In this document: positions 46,641-49,270 of the stretch, piece after piece
How positions within the stretch are numbered: position 1 is the first letter of the stretch
How the letters are laid out: each line of letters starts with the position of its first letter
DNA from: Phycisphaerales bacterium
GTDB lineage: Bacteria; Planctomycetota; Phycisphaerae; Tepidisphaerales; Tepidisphaeraceae
Length of the DNA stretch: 51,736 nt
Assembly (NCBI GenBank): GCA_020847545.1
Contig: JADLBV010000078.1
Span: 1-51,736, forward strand
Direction: 5' to 3'
Program-made: the position numbers and the translations under genes
The notes under the pieces: generated by a model
The model's database searches: none
What the model saw: only the letters and a program-made list of their open reading frames with translations
What the model was told of the DNA's origin: nothing

Positions 46641-47363
46641 CTACCAGAAATACCACTGGTCCTGATTCAATATGTAGTGCGATCCCAGCACATACGCCCC
46701 CAGCAGGAAATTGGTCACACCATGGGCGATGATGCACGCGCCGAGGCTGCGCGTGTACACCAGCAGCCCGCCGATCATCAATGCCCAGACAATCGCCGTC
46801 ATCCATTGGATGTGGACGCATGAAAAAATCAGCGACACCAGAAAAAAGGATGTGGGATCCCATTCGCCCACATCGGCCAGTTTGAAATCATTGGGAGCGG
46901 CGATGGTTCTCCATGCGAAGTCGCGCCAGAACAGCTCCTCCATCACCGGCACCAGCAGCGTCGCCCCGCCCCAGCGAACCGCGTAAAAGAGCCACAACAT
47001 CGGCCCCGACATCGCCGTCGTCGGGTTATACGGCTCGGCCGACAATCTCGGATAATTGGGCCACCAATGGAGCAACAATTTTTCCATCCCCACCCACTGC
47101 ACGATCCCCAGCACCCCCACCACCACGCCCAACTGCCAGTGTGTCCAGCGAATTTTCGTGAAATGCCGCCACAACACCACCAGCAACACCGCCACGATCA
47201 GCGTCTTGGCGATGTAACTGGCCGCGAACAACCCCGGCCATTGCACCCCCACCTGCGTCAACGCCAAAAACACCCCCATCGGCAACACATACGCCACATC
47301 ATCGCGAATGCGAGACGGCCGGGGCGGGGCATTAACCGAAGGTGGTGATGATGAAGCACTCAT
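46641..47363 (-). CDS. CAAX-protease-related membrane protein, PEP-CTERM associated type
   Basis: A 240-residue polytopic membrane protein of the CPBP (CAAX protease / bacteriocin-processing) family. Active-site motifs are EELFWRDFAWR (Glu142, Glu143, Arg147), FSCVHIQW (His184) and HGVTN (His214). Its form, with WPNYPRLSAEPYNP before the first motif, matches the CAAX-protease-related proteins recorded as companions of exosortase/PEP-CTERM systems. It directly follows the two PEP-CTERM cassettes on the opposite strand (9-base gap). It may process or remove exported tails, though this is inference. The ATG at 47363 has AAGGA upstream; a TTG 14 codons earlier is possible. Confidence 0.82.
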   Translation of the reverse strand: MSASSSPPSVNAPPRPSRIRDDVAYVLPMGVFLALTQVGVQWPGLFAASYIAKTLIVAVLLVVLWRHFTKIRWTHWQLGVVVGVLGIVQWVGMEKLLLHWWPNYPRLSAEPYNPTTAMSGPMLWLFYAVRWGGATLLVPVMEELFWRDFAWRTIAAPNDFKLADVGEWDPTSFFLVSLIFSCVHIQWMTAIVWALMIGGLLVYTRSLGACIIAHGVTNFLLGAYVLGSHYILNQDQWYFW

Positions 47364-47464
47364 GCCCGATTTTTCCTTGATTGGAGACAACAAACCATTG
47401 TTCAAACCATCGGCCAGAGGGCAAGTATCGGTAAAATATCAATACAGAAGACCATTGTTTGGTT

Positions 47465-47513: not shown

Positions 47514-47543
47514 TTGACAAACCAACCCGCCCTGTCGTAAAAG
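47514..47543 (+). promoter_or_regulatory. Promoter of leuA leader
   Basis: TTGACA (47514-47519) with TAAAAG (47538-47543) at 18 bases. The start point would fall at about 47550, next to the ATG of the leader peptide, so the message may be leaderless. The -10 box matches consensus at four of six positions. Confidence 0.5.
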
Positions 47544-47550
47544 ATCATCC

Positions 47551-47628
47551 ATGCGAGCGGATCGCCTGCGAGTTGCGCCCCTTACCCTGGCCCTTGGCGG
47601 CCTTCTTTTGTTGCGCGCAAGATCGTAG
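47551..47628 (+). CDS. leuL: leuA leader peptide, leucine-rich
   Basis: A 25-codon frame, starting MRADRLRVAPLTLALGG, then four consecutive leucines (CTT CTT TTG TTG at 47602-47613), then five residues and TAG. Eight of 25 residues are leucine. Nothing else fits this spot, and a leucine-rich short frame in front of a leucine-biosynthesis gene and a terminator is the classical leader-peptide layout. It is too short for homology. No strong Shine-Dalgarno sequence precedes it; translation may begin at the 5' end of the RNA. Confidence 0.7.
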   Translation: MRADRLRVAPLTLALGGLLLLRARS

Positions 47629-47695
47629 GGAACTGTCTTCAGACACTGATTTTGAAACGGCCCTGCGATTGAAATCGCGGGGTTTTTTTGTTTTT
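47622..47695 (+). promoter_or_regulatory. leuA attenuator: antiterminator strand and terminator
   Basis: Terminator: arms CCCTGCGAT (47661-47669) and ATCGCGGGG (47674-47682) pair over 9 bp around TGAA, followed by seven T, G and five T. Antiterminator: ATCGTAGGG (47622-47630), spanning the leader stop codon, can pair with the same left arm over 9 bp (one G-U). A ribosome stalled at the leucine run leaves 47622-47630 free and termination is prevented; a ribosome reaching the stop covers it and the terminator forms. A weaker alternative partner CCTTAC (47580-47585) could pair with GTAGGG. Confidence 0.72.
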
Positions 47696-47719
47696 ATGAC
47701 TTCACCAGCGGAGTAGATC

Positions 47720-49270
47720 ATGGAAAGCGTACGCATCTTCGACACCACCTTACGCGATGGCGAACAATCCCCCGGCGCCACGCTGACATTGCCCGAAAAA
47801 GTCGAGGTCGCCCGCCAGCTCGAGCTGCTGGGGGTCGATATCATCGAGGCCGGCTTCCCCGTCTCCTCCACCGGCGACTTTGAATCCGTCAAGGCGATCT
47901 CATCGCAGATCACCGCCAGCACCATCTGCGGGCTGGCCCGGTGCATCCCGCTGGACATCGAACGCGCCGGCAAGGCCGTCCAGCACGCCAAAAAATCGCG
48001 CATCCATATCTTTTGCGCCACCAGCAAGATTCACCGTGAACACAAGCTGCGCAAAGGCAAGGAGGACATCATCAAACTGGCCGTGGATTCGATCCACCAG
48101 GCGCTGCAATACACCCCTGATGTCGAATTTTCCCCAGAGGATGCCAGCCGCACCGAGCTGGATTTTCTGGAGGAGATCACCCACGCCGCCATCGAGGCCG
48201 GCGCCACCACCATCAACCTGCCCGACACGGTCGGCTATGCCACACCCAAGGGATACGGCGGCATCTTCTCCCACATGATCCGCAAACTGCCGATTATCCG
48301 CGAGAAAAACATCATCCTCTCATCGCATTGCCACGACGACCTGGGCATGGCGGTGGCCAATTCGCTGGCGGCCATCGAAAACGGCGCCCGACAGGTAGAA
48401 TGCACCATCAACGGCATCGGCGAACGCGCCGGCAACGCCGCCCTGGAAGAGATCGTCATGGCCCTGCGCACGCGAAGCGATTTTTATCAGGTCACCACCC
48501 GCATCGACGCGACCAAGATTTATCCCACCAGCCGGATGGTCTCCAGTTTGACCGGACTGGTCGTGCAGCGAAACAAGGCGATCATCGGCGAAAACGCCTT
48601 CGCCCACGAGTCGGGCATCCATCAGGATGGCATCTTAAAATTCCGCGAAACCTACGAGATCATGGACCCGGCCCATGTTGGCATCCCCAAATCCTCGCTG
48701 GTGCTGGGCAAACATTCCGGCCGACACGCCTTCCGCGACCGCGTGGTGCAACTGGGGTATACGCTGACCGATGAACAACTGGAATCGGCCTTCACCCGTT
48801 TCAAAACACTGGCCGACAAGAAAAAAGAGGTCTTCGACGAGGACATCGAGGCGCTGGTCGATGACCAGTTGGAACGTAACCATTCCCTGTGGAAACTGAC
48901 GTCGTTGCAGGTCGTCGCCGGAACCAACGCCATCCCCACCGCCACCGTCACGCTGACCGACAGCAACGGCCAGCAGATTCAGGATGCCTCCGTGGGAGAT
49001 GGTCCGGTCGATGCGATTTATTCGGCCATCCAACGCCTGACCGGCGTGAAGGTCAACCTGACCGACTACCGCATCCGCGCCGTCTCCCGCGGCAAGGATG
49101 CACAAGGTGAGGTGCAGATCGAACTGGAACATTCCGGCCGAAAAATCCACGGCCGGGGATTGAGTACCGACATTCTCGAAGCCAGCGCCCTGGCCTATCT
49201 GGCGGCCGTCAACCGCCTGCGAAATCTGGCCGACCGTGAACAATTGACGCTCTCTGAAGCGAATGTCTAA
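47720..49270 (+). CDS. leuA: 2-isopropylmalate synthase
   Basis: A 516-residue LeuA, condensing acetyl-CoA with 2-ketoisovalerate in the first committed step of leucine biosynthesis. The HMGL-like barrel has FDTTLRDGEQSPGATLTL (substrate/metal), HCHDDLGMAVANSLAA (metal His pair), GIGERAGNAALEEIV, and the C-terminal regulatory LeuA dimer domain from about residue 380 that gives leucine feedback inhibition. Length fits the bacterial type. It has a dedicated attenuated leader and terminator, and no other leu gene is next to it, so it seems to be transcribed alone. Confidence 0.97.
   Translation: MESVRIFDTTLRDGEQSPGATLTLPEKVEVARQLELLGVDIIEAGFPVSSTGDFESVKAISSQITASTICGLARCIPLDIERAGKAVQHAKKSRIHIFCATSKIHREHKLRKGKEDIIKLAVDSIHQALQYTPDVEFSPEDASRTELDFLEEITHAAIEAGATTINLPDTVGYATPKGYGGIFSHMIRKLPIIREKNIILSSHCHDDLGMAVANSLAAIENGARQVECTINGIGERAGNAALEEIVMALRTRSDFYQVTTRIDATKIYPTSRMVSSLTGLVVQRNKAIIGENAFAHESGIHQDGILKFRETYEIMDPAHVGIPKSSLVLGKHSGRHAFRDRVVQLGYTLTDEQLESAFTRFKTLADKKKEVFDEDIEALVDDQLERNHSLWKLTSLQVVAGTNAIPTATVTLTDSNGQQIQDASVGDGPVDAIYSAIQRLTGVKVNLTDYRIRAVSRGKDAQGEVQIELEHSGRKIHGRGLSTDILEASALAYLAAVNRLRNLADREQLTLSEANV

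Follow-up and report, generated by a model that had tools for sequence, protein, structure and literature searches.

Evidence for a leader-peptide transcription attenuator upstream of leuA in a planctomycete of the class Phycisphaerae

Whether the segment directly in front of leuA (positions 47514 to 47719 of the window, i.e., of the whole stretch of 51,736 nucleotides analyzed here) controls expression of this gene in response to leucine is the question raised by the locus, for which the sequence-only reading had proposed a complete leucine attenuator. The gene itself (47720-49270, plus strand) can be assigned to 2-isopropylmalate synthase by profile matches, as its product scores 777.8 bits with NF002086 (cut-off 532) and 728.9 bits with TIGR00973 (cut-off 598.7) and bears the Pfam domains HMGL-like and LeuA_dimer. 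It is a solitary leuA, followed downstream by a gene encoding a PD40-repeat protein, and a tetranucleotide GGAG at 47710-47713 is its likely Shine-Dalgarno sequence. The upstream neighbor of the leader (46641-47405, minus strand) encodes a CAAX-protease-related protein of the PEP-CTERM/exosortase type (TIGR03008, 117 bits). Since this gene is divergent, the terminator preceding leuA cannot serve it, and an assignment of the terminator to the upstream gene was ruled out. As detailed in the following, the segment is with a probability of roughly 90% a ribosome-mediated (leader-peptide) transcription attenuator setting leuA expression by charged leucine tRNA, the mechanism thus being very probably the one proposed earlier.

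Re-reading the sequence confirmed a frame of 25 codons (MRADRLRVAPLTLALGGLLLLRARS*, 47551-47628, plus strand) running from an ATG at 47551 to a TAG stop codon at 47626-47628 and containing eight Leu codons, four of which are consecutive (CTT CTT TTG TTG, 47602-47613) and represent the predicted stall site. Likewise, the strong terminator with a 9-bp stem was recovered, both by inspection and by a terminator scan, as a hairpin at 47661-47682 composed of the arms CCCTGCGAT (47661-47669) and ATCGCGGGG (47674-47682) separated by a TGAA loop and followed by the U-run T7GT5 (47683-47695). Also the strand ATCGTAGGG (47622-47630) overlapping the leader stop codon pairs with the left arm of the terminator as claimed, forming nine of nine pairs including one G-U, or ten pairs when position 47621 is counted, so that the complete antiterminator strand is GATCGTAGGG (47621-47630, in the following strand 2). 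Beyond these elements, the analysis revealed a promoter, a small hairpin within the frame and a 13-bp protector helix, in which strand 1 (CCTGCGA and TTGCGC, 47565-47578) pairs with 47623-47629 and 47615-47620, respectively. Attenuators of this class are characterized by a short frame with cognate codons, an intrinsic terminator ahead of the gene, a competing antiterminator that can be masked at the stop codon, and a protector helix, all of which were found in the leader. The small hairpin (47589-47602) shows the family consensus GGCCC-TTNN-GGGCC and possibly acts as a pause signal; in the family alignment, 87% of its cells are paired and two sequences have both sides changed. In relative L099, the hairpin (alignment A1, columns 39-52) is base-reversed to GGGCC-TTCT-GGCCC.

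The promoter consists of a -35 hexamer TTGACA (47514-47519), with an equally spaced TTGACN in nearly all family members, and an imperfect -10 hexamer TAAAAG (47538-47543) ending 7 nt before the leader ATG. It was not listed by the standard promoter scan and was found by a scan tolerating an imperfect -10 element. Across the family, the gap between the -10 hexamer and the start codon peaks at 7-10 nt, which places the transcription start at or a few nucleotides from the start codon. Accordingly, the leader frame in the window is probably leaderless, with the transcription start deduced from the promoter consensus. A leaderless start is also said to have been reported by Neshat et al. in 2014 for attenuators of Corynebacterium glutamicum. 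The short gap is characteristic of most members of the own family and of part of the other families; in family f10 and part of f5, the gap is longer and a purine-rich stretch is present instead. For Planctomycetes, few genes with Shine-Dalgarno sequences have been reported, together with leaderless or S1-type signals (PMC5397173).

From this architecture, a working cycle can be deduced in which the frame is translated and leucine supply decides between stalling with readthrough and termination. Transcription starting at or next to the ATG, as the promoter position suggests, would allow a ribosome to load an mRNA practically devoid of a 5' untranslated region. At scarce charged leucine tRNA, this ribosome would slow down within the run of rare Leu codons (47602-47613) and cover or unwind the protector, leaving strand 2 free. 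Before synthesis of strand 4, strand 2 would then pair with strand 3 (47661-47670), and RNA polymerase would read into leuA. At plentiful charged leucine tRNA, the ribosome would reach the stop codon and cover strand 2, enabling the 3:4 terminator to form. When no ribosome is present, the 1:2 helix would form and termination would be the default. This interpretation, that stalling frees the antiterminator and a ribosome at the stop codon hides it, was already part of the sequence-only reading and is now supported by folds of the three states, conservation, cross-lineage covariation and rare codons.

In the fold of the whole leader from the window, the 1:2 protector coexists with the 3:4 terminator (-52.2). 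The RNA left free by a stall on the Leu run adopts the 2:3 antiterminator, at -21.1 before strand 4 exists and at -23.9 thereafter, and the RNA left free by a ribosome at the stop codon forms the terminator. The outcome depends on where the ribosome edge is placed, as two of the last four Leu codons in the window give the switch. Minimum energy alone suffices for switching in 42 of the 104 detected leaders, compared to 1-4 in ten shuffled controls; the test is conservative in taking no account of the earlier formation of the antiterminator. Within the own family, the full switch is absent from minimum-energy folding in 11 of 23 members, for which kinetics would have to decide. Family-wide support for the protector comes from comparing the frame plus antiterminator strand with codon-permuted frames, where folding between frame and antiterminator is in excess (mean z of -1.96 versus -0.64 for the frame alone; paired test p = 9e-5, which, like the p-values throughout this analysis, ignores shared ancestry and overstates independence among related sequences).

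The codons and the spacing of the leader likewise agree with a stalling ribosome. CTT, CTA and TTA make up 146 of 295 Leu codons in the leaders (50%) versus 184 of 1745 in the leuA bodies (10%), corresponding to an odds ratio of 8.3, and CTT is used for none of the 46 Leu codons of leuA in the window. In the Salmonella leu attenuator, rare CUA Leu codons matter and replacing rare codons reduces sensitivity (PMC1183508). On average, 12.5 nt separate the last Leu codon from the antiterminator strand, a spacing near half a ribosome that bears out the earlier suggestion of a geometry fitting a ribosome footprint. Estimates of ribosome reach in the window employ the usual footprint. Accordingly, with the first Leu codon of the run (47602) in the A site, the front edge of the ribosome would lie at about 47614, and with the last one (47611) at about 47623, the edge of strand 2. 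Moreover, antiterminator strands located further downstream of the stop codon are accompanied by shorter Leu-free peptide tails, so that the two lengths compensate each other (rho = -0.63), as expected if the Leu codons need to keep just sufficient distance from the antiterminator strand.

For surveying leuA upstream regions, a strict detector was applied, which accepts a region only if it combines a strong terminator with a Leu-rich frame whose stop codon is the site of an antiterminator helix. Positives amount to 19 of 24 regions in the own family, 52 of 110 in the class sample (own family included) and 10 of 79 in a wider set, with no match in 20 shuffles of each set. About 2,700 tiles, 514 from the window and 2186 from 45 loci of relatives, were scanned as a natural control; the leuA leader was the sole match in the window, and only leuA leaders were returned from the relatives. 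The Leu-rich frame is found at the same place in all 24 leuA-bearing family genomes, so that the comparison of related upstream regions suggested by the sequence-only reading turned out in its favor; weaker or displaced antiterminators occur in family members L092, L101, L107 and L113. With a covariance model of the family leader (R1), a single strong match per genome, located in front of leuA, was obtained in 21 family genomes, 18 of these having served to build the model; the search of the host genome relied solely on this RNA model. Positives of the wider set are confined to Planctomycetota and Verrucomicrobiota, none being obtained for its leuA genes from Bacillota, proteobacteria and others. 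In a phylum-wide sample of 47, eight were positive in the strict test; six of these belong to family f48, whose remaining members also have the frame. The earlier description had referred to a lone leuA in a planctomycete-like genome. Nearest relatives place the host in the Phycisphaerae, and the element is not limited to one genome, occurring across Phycisphaerae, some other Planctomycetota and Verrucomicrobiota.

Covarying alternative stems had been predicted as well, and this holds between lineages but not within the own family. In the latter, the terminator shows two-sided changes, whereas none were found in the antiterminator helix, whose strand is nearly invariant and whose few changes mostly preserve pairing. 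Consequently, evidence from covariation rests on tests between lineages, where three strands change together, as is obvious from the strand pairs GATCGTAGGG/CCCTGCGATC in the own family, GCGGATAGG/CCTGTCTGC in relatives of f15 and f18, GGATCGCGGG/CCCGCGATCC in f10, GGCGTAGGGCT/GGCCCTGCGCT in f6, GGTCTTAGG/CCTGAGACC in f48 and GTGGCAGT/ACTGCCAT in a verrucomicrobial genome. As the detector selects for antiterminator pairing, the test was repeated on leaders chosen without that criterion. In these loci, pairing of the stop region with its own left arm gave 17.28, compared to 14.15 ± 0.29 (maximum 14.98) with swapped arms. With one member for each of 32 lineages, the own arm reached 15.37 versus 12.52 for an arm from another lineage, coming out ahead in each of 200 draws.

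Weaker matches of model R1 pointed to two sister attenuators, upstream of genes for citramalate synthase (cimA) and DAHP synthase. Of 22 family genomes, 18 show before cimA a leader with Ile codons, mostly arranged in a run, together with a matching antiterminator; examples are MFFFRTQIGPIQITPRQRG from the own genome and MRPTYSSILPVTIIIPRHRG from G133. The LeuA paralogue that follows an Ile-rich leader is assigned to citramalate synthase by its profile score (TIGR00977). In the own genome, the Ile-containing cimA leader with the antiterminator GGGTAGGGC and a terminator is located at G000:C109, upstream of 51277 (L002, about 1341-1456). The aromatic leader of DAHP synthase (MNTRFAGFGFWFNGYFYPAGQRAS in the own genome) possesses a core ending in WF-x-GY that is conserved in seven relatives, the leader recurring in no fewer than seven of the relatives for which the gene start could be placed. 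At G000:C27:25512-25663 on the minus strand (L193, L339) of the own genome, the aromatic leader FGFWFNGYFYP, an antiterminator and a terminator are found before the DAHP synthase gene. The agreement between leader amino acid and pathway at each gene lends independent support to the interpretation of the leuA leader.

These sister leaders also bear on the idea that the leader encodes a small hydrophobic membrane or signal-like protein, with the terminator only trimming the transcript and leuA being expressed by constitutive readthrough. The peptide is indeed short, basic at its start and Leu-rich, resembling a signal anchor; however, little beyond the Leu residues is common to the sequences across lineages, the Leu codons are rare ones, the stop codon lies within a strand co-varying with the terminator, and the equivalent frames are Ile-rich before cimA and aromatic before the DAHP synthase gene, rendering such a protein very improbable compared to a leader-peptide attenuator.

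Two further candidates in the family were dropped as intrinsic-terminator attenuators. At ilvB, a Val-run frame often ending in -LTVVVR was observed in about 19 of 22 loci (L221-L242), and no set of leader, terminator and antiterminator was found in these loci, the frame lacking an intrinsic terminator. The Val-run frame is followed by an inverted repeat of the GGCCGG/CCGGCC type without a U-run, and a search of five ilvB loci against Rfam returned no match; the element may act through Rho or translation. At trpE, no Trp leader with a terminator was detected in 17 family loci. The trpE gene (L313-L328) appears to be leaderless, several members showing a TACAAT-like -10 hexamer 7-8 nt before the ATG.

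Among described systems, the enterobacterial leuL attenuator (Rfam Leu_leader) shares with the planctomycete leader the Leu-rich peptide, rare Leu codons, protector, antiterminator and terminator. It differs in employing CTA, where CTT prevails in the own family, and in controlling an operon, whereas here leuA alone is controlled and the start is probably leaderless. Leu_leader does not match in the window, neither at the gathering score nor up to E = 5, and with no relevant Rfam match in the window or the loci of relatives, a known Rfam element was rejected.

In other phyla, leu genes are regulated by T-boxes or riboswitches, and a tRNA- or ligand-sensing RNA that happens to include a frame would accordingly be conceivable here. 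However, neither the T-box model nor another relevant Rfam family scores above threshold in the window or the relatives' loci, the sub-threshold matches in the leader are to unrelated sRNA and trpB models spanning the terminator hairpin, and the family alignment shows poor conservation of the primary sequence outside the frame and the arms, so that a sensing RNA has hardly any likelihood left.

Closer in function is Corynebacterium glutamicum with attenuators at leuA, ilvBNC, trpE and aroF (PMC4046766), where a Leu run precedes leuA and an aromatic frame precedes aroF; having leader peptides at both genes, it represents the nearest functional parallel. The likeness concerns gene pair, leader type and, going by the start reportedly found by Neshat et al., the probable leaderless initiation. 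No Rfam family matched the planctomycete leaders, which stem from another phylum, include Ile leaders before citramalate synthase and lack an attenuator at trpE. Actinobacterial leuA genes can also carry the LEU element, a Leu-run leader upstream of leuA for which classical attenuation is doubted (PMC1262725). Accordingly, the planctomycete leader could control leuA translation, or act via a protein or pseudoknot, instead of via transcription termination. In the passages of that source consulted, however, the LEU element forms a pseudoknot, its Leu run base-pairing with the Shine-Dalgarno site of leuA, with control at the ribosome-binding site and no terminator described, whereas in the planctomycetes a conserved strong intrinsic terminator with a U-run lies between leader and leuA. 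Control of this type is therefore considered highly unlikely, and transcription attenuation by the leader peptide remains the favored reading. The ilvB-II and ilvB-OMG RNA motifs (PMC10272879) resemble the leaders in having upstream frames rich in branched-chain codons, interpreted as attenuators, but they sit before ilvB, and the planctomycete leaders tested are without an Rfam match.

Leader-peptide attenuation was known from Proteobacteria and Actinobacteria only, until a survey in 2010 added Firmicutes (PMC2965389). The literature searched, with subscription papers outside its reach, yielded no such element from Planctomycetota or Verrucomicrobiota, in line with the earlier suggestion that an attenuator for a planctomycete leuA may be undescribed. 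As judged from its sequence, the leader would work like a classical leader-peptide attenuator, and no described sequence family was found to which it belongs. While the mechanism class is classical, novelty lies in the phylum, the probable leaderless start and the apparent regulon.

It is reasonably likely that Planctomycetota and some Verrucomicrobiota run a regulon of leaderless leader-peptide attenuation, comprising Leu leaders at leuA, Ile leaders at the citramalate synthase gene, Phe/Trp/Tyr leaders at the DAHP synthase gene and a terminator-less Val-run element at ilvB. If so, leaderless initiation would put the ribosome on the RNA as it emerges, hence synchronizing the start of ribosome and polymerase without a long leader. 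The leader amino acid lets downstream genes be annotated, as for the LeuA paralogue with an Ile leader that is a citramalate synthase by score. Moreover, an attenuator widespread in one class and showing different sequences with the same geometry across lineages bears on the question of repeated origin. The compartmented cell plan of planctomycetes has raised doubts about the coupling of transcription and translation. Since ribosome-mediated attenuation requires coupling, a planctomycete attenuator implies that the two processes are closely coupled, and such leaders offer a clean test of transcription-translation coupling in this phylum.
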